Below, one piece after another: positions 3,063 to 32,937 of a DNA stretch of 35,210 bases (position 1 is its first letter; each line of letters opens with the position of its first letter). The stretch lies in IMG/VR virus record IMGVR_UViG_3300001848_000543, positions 1 through 35,210 of that record. One strand, written 5' to 3'. The stretch comes from a virus. Below the pieces are notes generated by a model, which saw only the letters and a list, made by a program, of their open reading frames with translations, was not told where the DNA came from and searched no databases. Made by a program: the position numbers and the translations under genes.

Positions 3063-5333
3063 ATGCCTGTAATGCGTAGTTATAACGATGCGACACCTGT
3101 TGACCTCCTTATTAACCCATCCCCTCAAGGTGACCACCTAAGTCCAGAAGAAGCCAAAGTCCGCGATTATGTCCTTGCGTGGCGTAACAAACTCCGCTAC
3201 GAACGTATCGAAAAGGTCAACATTTGGAACGAGTGCTGGGCACTTTACCGTGGTCAAGAAGATTTTACCAACAAAGAAGACTGGCAGTCAAAAATTGTTC
3301 TACCTAAGGCTTGGGGTACCGTCAAGCAGGCCGTCAACGTAATTAAGCGGTTGATGAACCTGTCTAAGAAACCTTGGAAGTTGGAAAGTCAAGACGTGGC
3401 AAACCCGCTTTGGCAGCTTCGTGGGGAAAAGATGACCAACCTCACGAATATGTTCCTCGAAAAAGCCAAATTCAGTGAAGAGTTTACCACCGGCCTAGAA
3501 TGCGGCTTTATTATGGGTGTCGGCATCTGGAAGCTGGGCTGGAACCTCTCTAAACGCAACCGCATGCGAATCCAGATGGTTCAAATGCCGGTAGAACCCC
3601 TCCAGGCCGCCCCGCCCATCACCCCGCAAGGCCCAATCCAGAACCTACCGCCCGAACTTCAGCAGGCGGCAATGCGTGGTCAAATGCCCGCAGGACCACT
3701 CGAACAGCAGCAACAGCCTGTTCTTGCGCCCGAACAAATCGGTCAAAGCCGCCAAGAACTGCCTGTCCAGCAGAACGTCCAGTACCCGACTCAGCTTCCT
3801 CAAGAAGCCTTGATGCCTCCGGGCAGCCTGAACAGCCCGATGGGCGGACCGGTCGGTGGTCTTGCCCCGATCATGGTGCCGCAATTCCAGAAACAGGTCG
3901 TCCAAGAAGAGGTGCTCGAAGGCAACCTCACCATCAACGCGGTTGACCCGTACTTCTTCTATTGGCTTCCGGGCAGCAAACTCAACAAGTGGACCGGCAC
4001 AATCGAGGAAATCGAAGTCCCGAAATGGCAACTTCTCGAGATGGCCCAGGAAGGTGCTTTTGATCCTGAGCTGATCGAAAAGATCGGGCCGATGCTCATT
4101 CCCGAGTACCAGCGCCAAGTTTACCTGCGTTTTGGTGAAATGCCCCGTGGTCCTTCTGGCCCGACCAAAGACACCGGCATCATTAAGCTGACCGAGTTCT
4201 ATGGCCCACTGGTCATCGAGGGTAAAGTCGTTGAGAAAGACGCCCATATCATCATTGCAAATGACACTTGGGTGCTCAAAAATGGCCGAAACGAGTCTTG
4301 GTTTGGCACGCCTCCCTACTGCGCTTACTCCCCGCTGAGCCTGCCCTTCCGTACTGAAGGCACTGGCCTCGTCGAAATGGTGCGCTATATTGATCGTGCC
4401 CTGAACCAAATTGTCAACCTCGGCGTGGACACGTTGCTTTTCCGCTTGAACCCGCTTTTCGAGTTTACGCCGGACCTGTACGAAAACCCTGAAGACCTCC
4501 GCAACGGCATCACCCCCGGCAAGATGCTGCGCCGGAACCAGATTGTCGGTAACACGGACATGGGCATTCGGCCTGTGAAGTTCGAGGATGTGAGTCCCGG
4601 AGCTTCGAGTATGGCCGGAATTCTGGACCGCTCCCACCAGGAAGGTGGTTTGGTTTCGGAACTTCAGCAAAGCCTGCCTCGCTGGAGTGGTGCTCAAACT
4701 GCCACAGAAACTCAAGCCATCCAGCAAAACCAGAACAGCTTTTTCGGGAGCCTCGCCTCGGACATTGAAAAGCAGGCGATTCAGCCCATTGTCAAAATGG
4801 CGTCTGAGCTGATCATGCAGTACATTGACACGGCAAATGACCCCCGAGTTAGTGCAGTGCTCGGTATCGATCAAGTGGTGTTGGCCGGTATGAGTCATGC
4901 CGAGATCTATGAGATGATCAACGGCGATTATGACGTGAAGGTGACCGGCCTGAGCGATCAGATTGACAAGGCCGACATGCTCCAGAATCTGATCCAGCTC
5001 ATGAACATTATCGGTCAGAACCCGCAGGCTTGGCTGCCCTACATCAACCAGGATGCGCTGTTGCGTCGGATTCTCGATAGCTTCCGGCCCACAATCCATG
5101 ACATTGAGCAGATTGTGGCGGACCCGCAGACCGTGGCAGCAAACAAGGCCGCCCAGCAACAGTCCGAACAGCAGGCACAACTCATGAAGATGATGCCTGA
5201 GTTGCAGCGTCTACAGCAGGAACAGCAAATGAAGCAGATGGATCTTCAGCATGACATGGCAAAACATCAGGACACGATGATGCAGCGGGCTGCGGATCAA
5301 GCAATTGAAGCAAAACACAAAGGGGTAATGTAA
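3063..5333 (+). CDS. Portal protein
   Basis: The product has 756 residues, in the size range of large podovirus portals, and lies directly after terminase. The N-terminal part (WNECWALYRGQEDFTNKEDW) and the central helical segments with ETQAIQQNQNSFFGSLASDIEKQ resemble the stem and crown regions of portals in this group. Residues about 172-280 form a Pro/Gln-rich, low-complexity insertion, probably an exposed loop. The last 65 residues are a Gln/Met-rich coiled coil. The protein forms the dodecameric ring at the capsid vertex, through which DNA passes and on which the tail assembles. GGAG at 3053 sets the start. The long minus-strand reading frame across it is only a codon-bias shadow. Confidence 0.9.
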   Translation: MPVMRSYNDATPVDLLINPSPQGDHLSPEEAKVRDYVLAWRNKLRYERIEKVNIWNECWALYRGQEDFTNKEDWQSKIVLPKAWGTVKQAVNVIKRLMNLSKKPWKLESQDVANPLWQLRGEKMTNLTNMFLEKAKFSEEFTTGLECGFIMGVGIWKLGWNLSKRNRMRIQMVQMPVEPLQAAPPITPQGPIQNLPPELQQAAMRGQMPAGPLEQQQQPVLAPEQIGQSRQELPVQQNVQYPTQLPQEALMPPGSLNSPMGGPVGGLAPIMVPQFQKQVVQEEVLEGNLTINAVDPYFFYWLPGSKLNKWTGTIEEIEVPKWQLLEMAQEGAFDPELIEKIGPMLIPEYQRQVYLRFGEMPRGPSGPTKDTGIIKLTEFYGPLVIEGKVVEKDAHIIIANDTWVLKNGRNESWFGTPPYCAYSPLSLPFRTEGTGLVEMVRYIDRALNQIVNLGVDTLLFRLNPLFEFTPDLYENPEDLRNGITPGKMLRRNQIVGNTDMGIRPVKFEDVSPGASSMAGILDRSHQEGGLVSELQQSLPRWSGAQTATETQAIQQNQNSFFGSLASDIEKQAIQPIVKMASELIMQYIDTANDPRVSAVLGIDQVVLAGMSHAEIYEMINGDYDVKVTGLSDQIDKADMLQNLIQLMNIIGQNPQAWLPYINQDALLRRILDSFRPTIHDIEQIVADPQTVAANKAAQQQSEQQAQLMKMMPELQRLQQEQQMKQMDLQHDMAKHQDTMMQRAADQAIEAKHKGVM

Positions 5334-14347: not shown

Positions 14348-15298
14348 ATGCCAGGACAAGTATATTCAGTCTCCAGTCTCGGCGGAGTGATGTCTCAGCC
14401 GTACCTCTCGCAGAAGTTGCGAGCGGTGGCTCAGCCTTTGTTTCGATTTCGTCAGTTTGTAGACGCAAAGGAAGCAATCGGAAAGAACCGTGGTGATACG
14501 TTCCTATTCGACAAGATGCAGAACGTGCAGACCCAGGGTGGTGTTCTGATTGAAACTAACACGATTCCTGAAACGCAGTTTGTTACGAATCAGGGTACTT
14601 GTGTTATTACTGAGTACGGCAACGCCATTCCGTTTACCCAGAAGCTCGAAAACATGGCTCAGTTCCAGTTGGAACCGGCCACCGAACAACGTCTTCGTGA
14701 CGATATGGTGAAGGTGCTCGAATCCGCTTGCGGTACCAAGTACATCAACACCGAATTTATTGCGGTTTGCTCCGCGACGAACTCGGTTGTGATTACGACC
14801 AACGGTACTGCGACGGCGACGGCCACTGCCAATCTCACGGCCAGCAATACCCGCGACATTGTGAACTTCATGACGAAGAAACTCATTCCGAAATATGATG
14901 GTCGCAACTATGTGTGTATTGCCGGTGTCACTGCCCTTAGCGGTATGCACGCTGATACTGCTGCGGGTGGCTGGCAGGACATTAGCAAGTACACTGTGAC
15001 GTTTGCTCCGAATATCTTTGCTGGTGAAGTTGGCGAATTCTACAAAACTCGTTTTGTGGAAGAAACCGGCTTCTTGAGCAATTCCATCGGCTCTGGCTCG
15101 AACTACGGTCAGGCGGTGTTTTTCGGCGCGGATCAGGTGTATGAAGCGATTGCCGTGCCGGAAGAAATCCGCGTTAAGATCCCTCTCGACTACGGTCGTG
15201 ATATGGGTCTTGCGTGGTATGCGTTGCTTGGTTTCCAGACGGTTTGGAACTACAACGTCGACACCGAACAGCACTTGGTTTACGTAACGTCTGCTTAA
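14348..15298 (+). CDS. Major capsid protein (N4 gp56-like, HK97 fold)
   Basis: The product has 316 residues. LSQKLRAVAQPLFRFRQFVDAKEAIGKNRGDTFLFDKM near the N terminus is the pattern of N4-gp56-family capsid proteins, followed by an E-loop-like QTQGGVLIETNTIPETQF, P-domain helices (ATEQRLRDDMVKVLESACG) and a closing beta strand (IPLDYGRDMGLAWYALLGFQTVW). AGAGGA 7 nt before the ATG is a good ribosome-binding site, as expected for the most abundant virion protein. It lies between the scaffold and a decoration-like gene. It assembles the icosahedral shell. Confidence 0.92.
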   Translation: MPGQVYSVSSLGGVMSQPYLSQKLRAVAQPLFRFRQFVDAKEAIGKNRGDTFLFDKMQNVQTQGGVLIETNTIPETQFVTNQGTCVITEYGNAIPFTQKLENMAQFQLEPATEQRLRDDMVKVLESACGTKYINTEFIAVCSATNSVVITTNGTATATATANLTASNTRDIVNFMTKKLIPKYDGRNYVCIAGVTALSGMHADTAAGGWQDISKYTVTFAPNIFAGEVGEFYKTRFVEETGFLSNSIGSGSNYGQAVFFGADQVYEAIAVPEEIRVKIPLDYGRDMGLAWYALLGFQTVWNYNVDTEQHLVYVTSA

Positions 15299-15867: not shown

Positions 15868-16329
15868 ATGCCTGCTACCGCCGAAGCTGCGAATGCTTCA
15901 AAGAAAACCTACACCAATTGGGAAGCCTTTGCTAAGGCTGGCCTGATTCCTGCTACTCTCCGTTGCCAGTCCTACAAGCCGGTTCACCTTTCTGATAGCT
16001 CTTGTCATAGCAACTTGAAGTTCGATGCTGCTACGCTCAAGCGTCATTTCGATGGGGAACACGGTGGCGGGTTCTGGGTTGACGTGCGTAAGACCGAAGG
16101 TAAGCCGCATCCGCTTTGGGCGGAATTGGCTGCCAGCGGTCTAGAAGCCCACGATTTACGTTGTGACATCTGTGATGCTCAGATTCGGTGGTCGCCAAAC
16201 AGTATTATGGCCCACATGAAAGCGCATTCAGGCAAGACACGCCGGGTTTATCCCGGTGGCAAATTCAATTTCACGATTGGATACGGCCAGCCTGACCGCG
16301 AAGACTCTGACGTCGAAGATGCAGCCTGA
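15868..16329 (+). CDS. Protein with two internally duplicated C2H2-type zinc-finger modules
   Basis: The product has 153 residues. The second module has a textbook C2H2 pattern: C99-x2-C102-x13-H116-x3-H120 (RCDICDAQIRWSPNSIMAHM). The first is a variant: C33-x12-C46-x13-H60-x4-H65. Each is preceded by a matching helix, W-E-x-F-A-K-A-G-L ... L-R-C (18-33) and W-A-E-L-A-A-S-G-L ... L-R-C (84-99), so the protein is a tandem duplication of about 66 residues. It may bind DNA, RNA or protein; a transcription or packaging regulator is possible. It has its own strong promoter and no ribosome-binding site, and overlaps the next gene by 11 nt. Confidence 0.78.
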   Translation: MPATAEAANASKKTYTNWEAFAKAGLIPATLRCQSYKPVHLSDSSCHSNLKFDAATLKRHFDGEHGGGFWVDVRKTEGKPHPLWAELAASGLEAHDLRCDICDAQIRWSPNSIMAHMKAHSGKTRRVYPGGKFNFTIGYGQPDREDSDVEDAA

Positions 16330-17779
16330 AGTCGTTAAGTCTAAGTGGGTCCGCTATCGGGCAGCCTCGGCTTTATCTGGCCGAGGCTTGTCCTTTGGTT
16401 GCGGCCACGATCCGATTGTCCCCAAACAAGCCTTAGACGACGGTAAGTACTGCATCAACATGGACGTCATGAAGACGCCCAATGTTGATATCTGTGGTAC
16501 TGACTCAAGTGTCATCCAAAACCGAAGTTTGGACTTTGTGTTTGTGGGTGCCCGCGACAACGCTCCCCTCCGTGACCTAATCCAGAAACTTCGCCTGTAC
16601 GGTCACCTTGTCATCCACCAAAACTCCACAGACCTTGAGGCAGTGCGTGCCTCGATCACTCACCTCGGAAAATGGCAAGAGAAGGACACTTACGTCCGAG
16701 ACGGCCAGACCTTAGGCATTTGGAAGCTGATCGGGTTTGAGCAGCAAGGCATTCTTCCTCCTAAGCCCAAATCGGAAAAACGTGCATGCATTGCCCGATA
16801 CGGCGCAATTGGCGATATGATCATGATTTCGCCTATTATTCGCCTCCTTTCCGAACAAGGCTATGCAGTCACCCTGAATGTCACCCCTTACTGTGCGGAA
16901 GTCCTAAAGCACAACCCCTACATCTCTAACATCATCATTCAAGAACGGGATATGATCCCGAACCCTGAGCTTGGTGAATATTGGAAGGAGTGGATGGGTG
17001 ACTATGATAAGTACATCAATCTGTCCGAGTCTATTGAAGGCAAGCTGCTTCGGGTGGAAGGCCGGAACGACTTTTACACGAGCAAGGCTTGGCGAAGCAC
17101 GGACGTAAATTACTTTGACCAAACAGCCAGACTCTCTGGCTTCCCTGACGCCGTTGGCCTCAGGGGTGAGATCTACTTCAGCAAGGCTGAAGAACGGGAA
17201 GCACAGCTTTGGCGCAAAGCCCAAAAGGACGTGTTCACCATTCTTTGGGCACTCAAAGGCTCGAGCTACCACAAGATTTACCCGCTACTTGAACCGTGCC
17301 TTGTGGAGTGGCTTGAGAAGCACCCTGATGCTCAGGCCGCTCTGGTCGGTAGTTCTGGTGACGCCAACCTCCAGTTTGAGCACCCTCAAGTCCTGAATCT
17401 AGCGGGTGTGGCAAGCATTCGGCAGGTGTTTTGCCTGACCAAATACGTGGATTGTGTGGTTGGTCCTGAGTCCAGTGTGATCAATGCGGCTGGCTGTTTT
17501 GACACACCTAAAATCGCACTGCTGAGCCATAGCAATTGGAACAACTTGTGCAAGTACTGGGTGAATGATCATAGCTTAGCGCCTGAAAACATTGCCTGTT
17601 ATCCTTGCCATCAACTTCACTACACGCTCGATTCTTGCCCAACGGTGGATATGGTGGATCAGGACACACAGCAGGTGGCTTGGGCTGGACCGGTTTGTGC
17701 GGCTTACGGTGTTACCCCTGAGCGGATACACCAAAAGCTAGACCTGATATATCAGGAGTGGAAGAGCAAGCGAATCTAG
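16319..17779 (+). CDS. Fusion of methyltransferase-like domain and GT9 (heptosyltransferase-like) glycosyltransferase
   Basis: The product has 486 residues from the ATG at 16319; an upstream GTG at 16256 would add 21 residues. Residues 20-140 have a Rossmann methyltransferase outline: LSFGCGHDP (24-32) as motif I, YCINMDV, LDFVFVGARD and HLVIHQNS. The acidic and catalytic parts look weak, so it may bind rather than modify. Residues 155-486 are GT-B: ARYGAIGDMIMISPIIRLL (160-178) matches the GT9 N-terminal loop that contacts the acceptor, and VVGPESSVINAAGCF (about 380-394) matches the sugar-nucleotide-binding region. It probably adds a sugar to a glycan. It is coupled to the zinc-finger gene. 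Confidence 0.8.
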   Translation: MQPEVVKSKWVRYRAASALSGRGLSFGCGHDPIVPKQALDDGKYCINMDVMKTPNVDICGTDSSVIQNRSLDFVFVGARDNAPLRDLIQKLRLYGHLVIHQNSTDLEAVRASITHLGKWQEKDTYVRDGQTLGIWKLIGFEQQGILPPKPKSEKRACIARYGAIGDMIMISPIIRLLSEQGYAVTLNVTPYCAEVLKHNPYISNIIIQERDMIPNPELGEYWKEWMGDYDKYINLSESIEGKLLRVEGRNDFYTSKAWRSTDVNYFDQTARLSGFPDAVGLRGEIYFSKAEEREAQLWRKAQKDVFTILWALKGSSYHKIYPLLEPCLVEWLEKHPDAQAALVGSSGDANLQFEHPQVLNLAGVASIRQVFCLTKYVDCVVGPESSVINAAGCFDTPKIALLSHSNWNNLCKYWVNDHSLAPENIACYPCHQLHYTLDSCPTVDMVDQDTQQVAWAGPVCAAYGVTPERIHQKLDLIYQEWKSKRI

Positions 17780-29498: not shown

Positions 29499-31394
29499 AT
29501 GCCTCTTTCTCAAAAACATGTGCATACCCTATTGGGCGGTCAATGGGCTAATCTTACTGATAGTGATAAAGCTGATCTTGCTGATGCACTACGGGAAGAC
29601 CCAGGTTTGATTGGAAATGTAAAAGGTTATTCTCCTGAGCAAAAAGCTAGGCTTTCATCCCTTTTAGTACCTCAACCTAAAGTTTCTACACCACAACTTA
29701 AAAAGGTTAGTTTACTTGAGGGAACTCCTGTCGATGATACGCGCAGGGATTTATCTACTTACAATTATGCCCTAGATCCATTTAATTTAGGTAGTTCATT
29801 TGAAAAAGCTTCTAGATCCCTTGTAGATCTCCCAGCACAATGGCAAGCTGCCGCTGAAAGTGCAAAAGTCAAGGGAACTACACCGGCTGACATAAAGACT
29901 GTAGCTGCAATTAAAATGGTTGAAGATGTTGCAGAACCATATTTGAAAGCTGCTGGTGTTATAGGATTGGGTAGAGCATTAGCTGGAGATTGGAAGTCAA
30001 CATTGAAATCATTACCGGGTGCTGCTATTTTAGGTGGCGTTGGTAGTGAAATCGGTAGTGAACTTGGTGGTATGACAAGTATGCCTGAAACAGGTAAAGA
30101 GCTTGGTAGTATAATTGGCGGCTTAGGTGGTGCCACTCTTGGGGCGGAGTCACCTAAACTTGGGAAACCCAAACCTGTTGAAGAATTGATTAACGCCCTA
30201 CGTCCAAACATAGAAACTGAACGTACATTACATCCCGACAATCGACCCCTTGCTGAAAATGCAATGGCTCATATTAAGGAAGCTTGGGGTAAGGAAATCA
30301 CTAACCCTAATGATGTTGTTAAGGCCTCTAAGCATACACAAGATCTTATAAAGGGAAATATCGATACCCTTATAAAACATTATGATGACGTTGATGTCAG
30401 GAATACAGGTGAGCCAACTAGCTTTTCCTTGGATTCTATACCTCAGAAAGTACTAAGTAAGGTTAGCCCTGATCTTAAAAAGTTTCACCCAGAGGAAATT
30501 AGTCAACTTTACAATGAACTAGTCGATAAGTATACAGGAAAAAACCTTACACGATCTGAACTTGCTGATAGAAATAGTACTCTCAATGCTGAAGTAAGTA
30601 GATTCTTTGATGCTAAGACTGGTGATAGGATAACAAAATTTAATAGTGGCTCGGATCTAGCCCTTAAAAAGTTAGAGCGTGATGCCATCAATGAATTATT
30701 TTACGATTCAGTTGGTGGTAAGGGTAGTCCTGTTGGGCAGTTAAATACGTTACGTCAGGGTGTAATTGATATTGGTAATGCTGCCGAACGTAGAGTGGGA
30801 GAGCCTACCCTACAACAAGCCACAACTCCAGTTGGTAAGATTGGTGACTTTTTAAAGGGCTTTATTCCCCTTACAAAAACTACAGCGGGAGTTACAGAGC
30901 TTGGATCCCCCATGGAAGCTGTTAGGGGGAAGACAGCTTCAAAAACCAGAAGTGCGTTTTCCGCTGTCGGTAAACCAGCATATGTGGATGTAGGCCCTAT
31001 GAATTTGCCGCCACCCATACCGGGACAAGGCCGCCTTGCTGCTGGAGGATCACCTACCCCACCGATTGCCGGTAGACCTCAGCCTCAACTTGGTGGTTTA
31101 ACCCTAACGCCAACTCAACTTGAAAATCTGAATGCGTTTTTACGTTCAGGTGGAACATCAGAATACTATACCCCAACTCAGTTGGAAAATTTACGTCGTT
31201 CAGTCGAAATAGGTGAAACCCCAAGAGAGCCTCGTATGGCTGATGTACTTCGAGCTTGGCAAGAGTGGTATTTAAATCCGAATATACATACTTCCGTACC
31301 GGGTAGTCAAGCCGAACAAATGAAGGCTGCACAAAACCCAAATGTTTCATTATTGGATGTGCTTAGAAATAATAGATGGTGGGGACCACGCTAA
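29499..31394 (+). CDS. Putative large internal virion (ejection) protein
   Basis: The product has 631 residues. Residues about 170-216 are a glycine-zipper-like hydrophobic region (GAAILGGVGSEIGSELGG..., IIGGLGGATLGAE), as found in channel-forming ejection proteins. Helical segments follow, then a Pro-rich stretch and a C-terminal duplicated TPTQLENL/YTPTQLENLRR motif (about 546-575). No lytic transglycosylase residues are seen. It is probably ejected with DNA into the host. A/T-rich codons match the gene upstream. It ends in TAATG with the phosphatase. Confidence 0.62.
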   Translation: MPLSQKHVHTLLGGQWANLTDSDKADLADALREDPGLIGNVKGYSPEQKARLSSLLVPQPKVSTPQLKKVSLLEGTPVDDTRRDLSTYNYALDPFNLGSSFEKASRSLVDLPAQWQAAAESAKVKGTTPADIKTVAAIKMVEDVAEPYLKAAGVIGLGRALAGDWKSTLKSLPGAAILGGVGSEIGSELGGMTSMPETGKELGSIIGGLGGATLGAESPKLGKPKPVEELINALRPNIETERTLHPDNRPLAENAMAHIKEAWGKEITNPNDVVKASKHTQDLIKGNIDTLIKHYDDVDVRNTGEPTSFSLDSIPQKVLSKVSPDLKKFHPEEISQLYNELVDKYTGKNLTRSELADRNSTLNAEVSRFFDAKTGDRITKFNSGSDLALKKLERDAINELFYDSVGGKGSPVGQLNTLRQGVIDIGNAAERRVGEPTLQQATTPVGKIGDFLKGFIPLTKTTAGVTELGSPMEAVRGKTASKTRSAFSAVGKPAYVDVGPMNLPPPIPGQGRLAAGGSPTPPIAGRPQPQLGGLTLTPTQLENLNAFLRSGGTSEYYTPTQLENLRRSVEIGETPREPRMADVLRAWQEWYLNPNIHTSVPGSQAEQMKAAQNPNVSLLDVLRNNRWWGPR

Positions 31395-32029
31395 TGGCAG
31401 ATAGAATTAGGGGTACGAGTAATATTCCGTTGTCGGCACTGGGGCGAAAGCAGGTGGCTGACTTGGCTTTGGCACTCAAGGGTCAGGTCAATAAGATTCA
31501 CAGCAGTGACTTGGATCGGGCTGTGGCGACTGCGGCTGCCATTCGGCAGACCAACCCTGATGCTTTTGTCGTGAATATTACCCATAAGCTGCATCCTTGG
31601 CGGATGGGTGAGCATGAAGGAAAGTTAACGGAAGAAATGCTGCCGATCATGCTGGACCGAATTGCCAAAAACCCTGACCAAGTCATGGAAGGCATTAGCC
31701 CCCAGAGTGGATCGAGGGGTGAGAGCTTTAATCAGTACAAGAATCGGTTGCTTGGCTACATTCGAGATGAGGTGCTGAGGAATGCCAATCCGAAAGAAGT
31801 GACGGTAGTGACGACACACTACAGGCCGATTCGGACGTTGGAATCGTGGTTGAAGGCCGGTAGCCCGCATGACTTGAGCATTGATACGAATGAGATGTTA
31901 CAGAAGGGTGATAGTGAACCGAGTGACCTGTTCTATCTCCATCCTGACGGGAAGCTGGTTAAGGTCAATGACGCGAAGGATGCTGGAGTCTATTTCGCAA
32001 GGCACGGTGCCACGGAGTGGAATGGATGA
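31394..32029 (+). CDS. Histidine phosphatase with circularly permuted domain order
   Basis: The product has 211 residues. In ordinary histidine phosphatases the catalytic RHG comes first, followed by RG...PLS..G, SSDL.RA and a late His. Here the protein starts at the part that normally follows RHG (DRIRGTSNIPLSALGRKQ), continues through SSDLDRA (R42), GEHEG (E73-G76) and TTHYR (H142), and ends with VYFARHGATEWNG, RHG at 203-205. All catalytic residues are present, in permuted order within one frame. It would dephosphorylate a small molecule or protein through a phospho-histidine. The start ATG overlaps the upstream stop. Its role in infection is unknown. Confidence 0.85.
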   Translation: MADRIRGTSNIPLSALGRKQVADLALALKGQVNKIHSSDLDRAVATAAAIRQTNPDAFVVNITHKLHPWRMGEHEGKLTEEMLPIMLDRIAKNPDQVMEGISPQSGSRGESFNQYKNRLLGYIRDEVLRNANPKEVTVVTTHYRPIRTLESWLKAGSPHDLSIDTNEMLQKGDSEPSDLFYLHPDGKLVKVNDAKDAGVYFARHGATEWNG

Positions 32030-32268: not shown

Positions 32269-32512
32269 ACGTGTTCCACGCTACTACCATCATAAACCAT
32301 AGGTTGACTGCCTTTAGCATCTTTGGATAGGTTCTGTTTATCATAAAGGCCATAGCAGTAGCTATGGCCTTTATGATAAAGAAGCCAAGCCAGATACTGT
32401 CAAAAGGCTGTATCAGCCATAGGATAAATGGGTTACCTTCACGACCACCATTCCTTATTACAAGCCATGTGGTTAGTAAGTCTAACAGTTGCAATAAGAT
32501 GAATGTGTTCAT
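32243..32512 (-). CDS. Small membrane protein, DUF5658-like
   Basis: The product has 89 residues with three hydrophobic segments. The first has LLQLLDLLTTWLVI and is followed by GREGNPF, the Asp/Glu/Asn-Pro pattern of the DUF5658 family of small membrane proteins. Function unknown. It is coupled to the JAMM gene by an ATGA overlap and is the last gene of the minus-strand block. A perfect 20-bp inverted repeat lies within its coding sequence (32337-32380). Confidence 0.68.
   Translation of the reverse strand: MNTFILLQLLDLLTTWLVIRNGGREGNPFILWLIQPFDSIWLGFFIIKAIATAMAFMINRTYPKMLKAVNLWFMMVVAWNTSTFLWTYT
32337..32380. repeat. Perfect 20-bp inverted repeat with 4-nt loop
   Basis: The arms 32337-32356 and 32361-32380 are exact reverse complements around AGTA. 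The stem includes ATAAAGGCCATAGC. There is no U tract on either side. It lies where plus- and minus-strand transcription converge and may act as a transcription block or an RNase III-type processing site. It encodes part of a membrane helix on the minus strand. Confidence 0.92.
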
Positions 32513-32937
32513 CCGTCAATTATATCATAGATGACGGTCTTGGCTCCGCTATAAAAGGTCAGGTCAGAGCGGCGCTTTGCTCCGCTCTTCCACCAGCTTA
32601 ACACCCCAAAGATTGCTTCACCGATTTTAGCTGCGCCCTCGATGTCGGCCTTGCTCAAGTGCGGTTCACAGTTAGGGTGGCTGTGAATGGTGCCTACGAT
32701 TTGGAGGGGCAGGATCTTGACTTGGAGGCGAACCACGTCATTAACGCTCCACAGGTCTTCTACAGAACGGTTGGAGGAGCGTTGAGGCGGGTAGATTGCC
32801 TCTTCGACCACTACTTCAGTGATCTGTTCGTTCTCCTTGATCACTTTGCCCACTAAGAACACCAGCAGTTCTTTGTTCGAGGCCATCGCCTTTTTCTTGA
32901 ACGTCTTTATCAGGGATGCCGGAATGGTTAGAGTCAC
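32509..32937 (-). CDS. JAMM/MPN+ (Prok-JAB) metalloprotein
   Basis: The product has 142 residues. TIHSHPNCEPHLSKAD gives the full JAMM signature H85-x-H87-x7-S95-x2-D98, with the catalytic Glu at E23 (NKELLVFLVG). JAMM proteins are zinc peptidases or isopeptidases that cut isopeptide or small protein tags, or act in sulfur transfer. Here it is a stand-alone phage enzyme, unlike the tail JAMM domain in the lambda K protein. It starts with GTG at 32937, supported by the normal N-terminal strand of the fold (TLTIPASLIKTFKKKAM). AAAGGAGG lies 12 nt upstream, a long spacing. Confidence 0.85.
   Translation of the reverse strand: MTLTIPASLIKTFKKKAMASNKELLVFLVGKVIKENEQITEVVVEEAIYPPQRSSNRSVEDLWSVNDVVRLQVKILPLQIVGTIHSHPNCEPHLSKADIEGAAKIGEAIFGVLSWWKSGAKRRSDLTFYSGAKTVIYDIIDG

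Follow-up and report, generated by a model that had tools for sequence, protein, structure and literature searches.

Nearly all cells have histidine phosphatases, enzymes whose catalytic nucleophile lies on the first strand of the chain. A gene in a metagenomic contig from an uncultivated virus (35,210 bases, called the window below) raises the question of whether that strand can sit at the opposite end of the protein. Its product, P0001, carries the catalytic RHG triplet at residues 203-205 of 211 and starts with the segment that normally follows RHG, as a reading of the sequence alone had described. The features referred to throughout are listed here.

31392..31396, plus strand: TAATG, the stop of the 631-aa upstream gene overlapping the phosphatase start (shared A; sequence)
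31394..32029, plus strand: P0001, 211 aa, putative circularly permuted histidine phosphatase (sequence, PF00300, AlphaFold2)
31403..31414, plus strand: R4-I-R-G7 in the N-terminal segment, normally found after RHGxTxxN; the hallmark DRIRG of a phage clade (sequence)
31517..31519, plus strand: R42 in SSDLDRA, the phosphate pocket's second conserved Arg (invariant in alignment A4)
31595..31597, plus strand: P68, where bacterial members have the proton-donor Glu (alignment)
31817..31819, plus strand: H142, second conserved His (VTTHYRP; nearly invariant in A4)
31985..32002, plus strand: residues 198-203 in the GVYFAR region, predicted to form the last beta strand, which stops at R203 and stands in for the usual first strand (AlphaFold2)
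32000..32008, plus strand: R203-H204-G205, the catalytic RHG with nucleophile His204 (sequence; profile, residues 198-211)
32026..32029, plus strand: ATGA, the phosphatase stop overlapping the start of the next gene (sequence)

Gene boundaries and genomic context

P0001 begins with MADRIRGTSNIPLSALGR and ends with GVYFARHGATEWNG. Both flanking genes are read in frames other than that of P0001 (the downstream one encodes a small protein with a hydrophobic N-terminal segment), and because both gene ends are tightly coupled to their neighbours, they look natural. Within the window sequence, RHG is absent ahead of the start codon, and the stop codon is not followed by phosphatase sequence.

The window belongs to a tailed phage, as its P22-like portal gene at 3063-5333 and its major capsid gene at 14348-15298 indicate. 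The P0001 gene comes after a run of putative virion proteins, so assigned from their position, and is probably co-expressed with those adjoining it; these gave no PHROG match. Where relatives of the source phage were reached via the capsid and portal genes, the P0001 region was absent or the relatives were fragments, and the 631-aa upstream protein, used as a query, brought up no relatives. Just downstream on the opposite strand, positions 32509-32937 encode a Prok-JAB (MPN) domain protein (27.5 bits). Elsewhere in the window are a heptose-1-phosphate adenylyltransferase-like gene (300-848; TIGR02199, 83 bits, below the cut-off) and a gene with weak heptosyltransferase resemblance (16256-17779), which together suggest sugar modification by the source phage. 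A role for P0001 in a heptose pathway was considered from these two genes and set aside as too thinly supported.

Profile scores of original and rejoined sequences

Against PF00300, P0001 scored 78.4 bits (cut-off 21.7), with residues 3-157 aligned to profile positions 15-162; the RHG-bearing positions 1-14 were absent from the front of the protein. When the C-terminal 21 residues were moved to the front, the score rose by 17 bits to 95.6 and the match covered profile positions 1-162 (89.6 bits with the Met retained). The same operation raised the scores of L142 and L061, the two relatives described below, from 68.4 to 81.8 bits and from 84.2 to 101.1 bits, respectively, and a control in which the RxRG block was put in the wrong place came down to 62.8 bits. 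The gain was thus 13-17 bits across all three proteins, and the prediction that a rejoined sequence would outscore the original held for each of them.

A separate profile of the RHG block was built from 78 normal-order relatives. The last 14 residues of P0001 (198-211) scored 29.6 bits against it, while the best of 20,000 shuffles of P0001 reached 16.6 and the next best of 214 six-frame window ORFs reached 3.7, which argues that the C-terminal RHG is not there by chance. PF00300 itself was present in 13 of 14 control genomes. P0001 shows these marks of branch 1 of the superfamily: a PF00300 match, RHG, the second Arg and His, and a predicted three-layer alpha/beta fold.

Predicted structure

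AlphaFold2, given an input alignment made of window and locus proteins only, returned a confident histidine-phosphatase fold for P0001 (mean pLDDT 96.9, pTM 0.92) with RHG on the C-terminal strand, so the structure check proposed in the sequence-only reading came out in favour of permutation. The L142 model (pLDDT 90.2, pTM 0.86) likewise has the RHG strand as its last strand (206-211). Residues 1-193 of the P0001 model aligned with residues 17-200 of PhoE (1h2e) in VIA-align (Z 17.0, rmsd 2.7, 171 residues). The N-terminal RHG strand of PhoE had no sequential partner in the model, which is the outcome expected for a permutation at that point. Given the high pTM, the RHG strands of the P0001 model and PhoE would overlap in space, and the model implies that the P0001 termini meet in space.

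Permuted and normal-order relatives

Neither a P0001-only peptide pattern applied to viral and genome contig collections nor tblastn against GenBank phages yielded relatives. A degenerate DNA pattern, DRIRGxxx(hydrophobic)PLxxxG, returned 55 loci from IMG/VR, most of which were phage phosphatases with RHG shortly ahead of DRIRG. At one of them, L061 (a 109.6-kb contig), DRIRG comes first and GGIYFVRHGETAWNG follows about 210 residues on, all inside an ORF or polyprotein longer than 3,600 aa. When the L061 record was searched independently with PF00300, profile positions 12-147 came first and positions 1-14 downstream in the same frame. A second IMG/VR pattern gave L142 (a 73.8-kb contig), a stand-alone protein of 238 aa with RHG last; its start and the stop of the gene upstream share the ATGA at 2342-2345. 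A large gene near L142, which has no Pfam match, looks like a terminase large subunit.

All three permuted sequences come from uncultivated metagenome contigs with different gene surroundings. P0001, L061 and L142 align end to end and share the same break point, the other two being 36-39% identical to P0001, and in each the old C terminus runs collinearly into RHG. What follows RHG differs: the P0001 gene ends (RHGATEWNG), L061 continues into a proline-rich linker and L142 has a short tail. No second RxRG follows RHG in any of the three. Relatives with the same order had been named as something to look for, and two were thus found by the IMG/VR pattern scans; an RHG lying in a second, separate phosphatase domain, named in advance as contrary evidence, is absent from both L142 and L061. 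The occurrence of the same order in two other viruses marks it as a real natural variant, not a sequencing accident.

Among the other profile-matching ORFs that were fetched, 106 distinct ones are of normal order, with RHG (or RHA) first. No end-to-end match to a three-sequence profile was found in about 700 bacterial genomes from two phyla (E limit 1e-14), where every match ended near profile position 151 and is therefore of normal order or partial. Two weak matches without RHG (L078 and L079) were considered as permuted candidates and proved to be of normal order; they are large phage polyproteins in which the phosphatase domain has diverged and RHA replaces RHG. A locus with two RHG triplets (L071) was considered as an intermediate and rejected, since its first triplet sits in a Cys-rich HiPIP-like stretch. 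L077 contains the ORF of L061; in this polyprotein the permuted phosphatase is accompanied by a weak Eco57I-type methylase match and helicase-like sequence, and the whole presumably resembles DarB-like antirestriction proteins.

Catalytic residues

Conservation of R42 and H142 was judged on the 41 sequences of alignment A4. P0001 keeps R42, H142, R203 and H204, and L142 keeps the same set. The sequence-only reading had placed R42, E73-G76 and H142 in their normal order between the ends; this is correct for R42 and H142, and E73-G76 (EHEG) turned out to be the glycine-containing 'wEG' stretch, the position of the catalytic Glu (LRE) being taken by P68 (LHPWRMG in P0001 versus LREIHLG in PhoE). 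P0001 therefore lacks the Glu proton donor that characterises dPGM/PhoE/CobC-like members (LRE motif), and the statement that all catalytic residues are present, sound for R203, H204, R42 and H142, was too strong. This acid position holds Pro in 30 of 36 phage-labelled rows, whereas 42 of 43 bacterial rows have Glu. L061 has Asp at the proton-donor position and Asn in place of the second His (VVNRRS), so its domain may be inactive or altered. With the general-acid Glu absent and the second His lost in L061, activity is not certain.

Phylogeny and the phage clade

When 82 rejoined domains were placed on a tree, the permuted rows all fell on one side of a branch (support 67/81), with P0001 and L061 paired (97/87) and L142 on a long branch. 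A set of 36 rows (33 phage and 3 permuted) stood apart from the 43 bacterial rows (100/96). P0001 lay inside the phage LRPWNxG clade, as defined here, both in this set and in a 34-row set (31 phage and 3 permuted; 97/83). A single origin for the three permuted proteins is likely, at the moderate support of 67/81.

Normal-order members of the phage clade mostly have Pro at the Glu position (LRPWNxG) yet keep RHG, Arg and His. Among the normal-order domains, some have a portal protein as fusion partner (Phage_portal_3 for L037 and L059, SU10_portal for L050), and others have Mu F (L073), XkdF protease (L044 and L057), LigD_N (L056) or a HiPIP-like module (L033). The portal, Mu F and XkdF fusions suggest a role tied to the phage head, for P0001 as well, and head association of the phosphatase is the simplest reading for the clade as a whole. 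The literature searched offered no function for the clade and nothing relevant on portal proteins with histidine phosphatases. Phosphatase-matching records under the names Listeria phage LM 4-11-1 and 4-14-1, Enterococcus phage IME_EF3 and Efs 1-1-1, and Escherichia phage ECO95 1-6-1 are unverified and look like pieces of host chromosome.

Weighing of explanations

P0001 is very probably a branch-1 histidine phosphatase that has been circularly permuted in nature and belongs to a phage-specific clade, the enzymatic part of this description being a prediction. The original proposal of natural permutation is upheld by motif order, the coupled gene ends, L142 and L061, the gain on rejoining and the predicted fold. 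An assembly or frameshift artefact, in which a normal gene was broken or rotated in the contig and its true upstream RHG lost, might come to mind because the window is a metagenomic contig; it is in effect refuted by L142 and L061, which share order and break point in different surroundings, and the coupling of both P0001 ends to neighbours in other frames and the collinear run of the old C terminus into RHG in all three proteins leave it next to no probability. Only slightly less improbable is that P0001 is a tandem remnant, in which a phosphatase minus its first strand has the beginning of another, truncated phosphatase domain behind it. Circular permutants in general are likely to arise through tandem duplication, but no second RxRG follows RHG in P0001, L061 or L142, a single domain is predicted (pTM 0.92), and a phosphatase without RHG would have no nucleophile.

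A loss of enzymatic function is a more serious alternative, although still on the unlikely side. Under it, the permuted fold would serve the phage particle as a module for binding or structure, as could be read from Pro68 at the proton-donor position, from the L061 domain that lacks the second His within a large polyprotein, and from the portal or head protein fusions of some normal-order relatives. Set against this, P0001 retains R42, H142, R203 and H204 and L142 the same set, and the normal-order relatives, which mostly have Pro, still retain RHG, Arg and His.

Proposed mechanism and origin

As a natural permutant, the P0001 chain would still fold as the usual alpha/beta sandwich. Its former first strand (GVYFARHG) would be the last to be made and is predicted to sit in the core sheet. 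A predicted hairpin (about residues 179-197) would join the old C terminus to the RHG strand, and the new N and C termini would lie at the site of the usual RHGxTxxN-to-RxRG loop, at the edge of the active site. R203, R42 and H142 would hold the phosphoryl group while His204 takes it up, and water would then free it. With Pro68 in place of the Glu donor, another residue would have to protonate the leaving group, unless the substrate has a good leaving group. We infer that a normal phage phosphatase gene was duplicated or fused and then lost its outer halves, and that this probably happened a single time, in an ancestor shared by P0001, L142 and L061. A speculative and rather improbable extension is that, since the permuted phosphatase has its ends at the active site, catalysis has to wait for the final residues of the chain and, in polyproteins like that of L061, flanking linkers could gate the pocket; activity would then depend on translation being completed or on proteolytic processing.

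Relation to known systems

The histidine phosphatase family is already known, and the permuted order appears to be a new variant of it. In the open-access literature searched, nothing relevant turned up on circularly permuted histidine phosphatases or phosphoglycerate mutases. As a natural permutant, P0001 would indicate that the fold tolerates shifting the nucleophile strand to the opposite chain end; a first-strand RHG is typical of superfamily members but is not required for the catalytic core. There would be three natural examples in which to study how permutations arise. Such members will be missed or cut short by searches built on an RHG at the front. Attention is also drawn to a clade of phage phosphatases, some fused to portal or head proteins and mostly without the usual Glu.

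Within branch 1 of PF00300, the nearest solved structures are PhoE (1h2e, 1ebb) and the phosphoserine phosphatase PspA (4ij5). P0001 resembles these in fold (Z about 17), RHG, second Arg, second His, RxxG...PL...G and GES, and differs in having the RHG strand C-terminal rather than N-terminal and Pro for the proton-donor Glu. With the normal-order phage clade (DRIRGW...LRPWNxG), whose members occur alone or as fusions with portal, Mu F or XkdF proteins (for example L040, L066, L037, L059, L073 and L044), it shares the C-terminal region and the motifs DRIRG, GESFNxF/GESFNQY and THxR, as well as PW at the acid position; in that clade RHG comes first, 4-9 residues ahead of RxRG, whereas in P0001, L142 and L061 it comes last. 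Other natural circular permutants include concanavalin A, swaposins and DNA methyltransferases. P0001 has in common with them an unchanged fold with moved ends, but belongs to another superfamily and is unlike them in that the catalytic nucleophile itself shifts from the first strand to the last.
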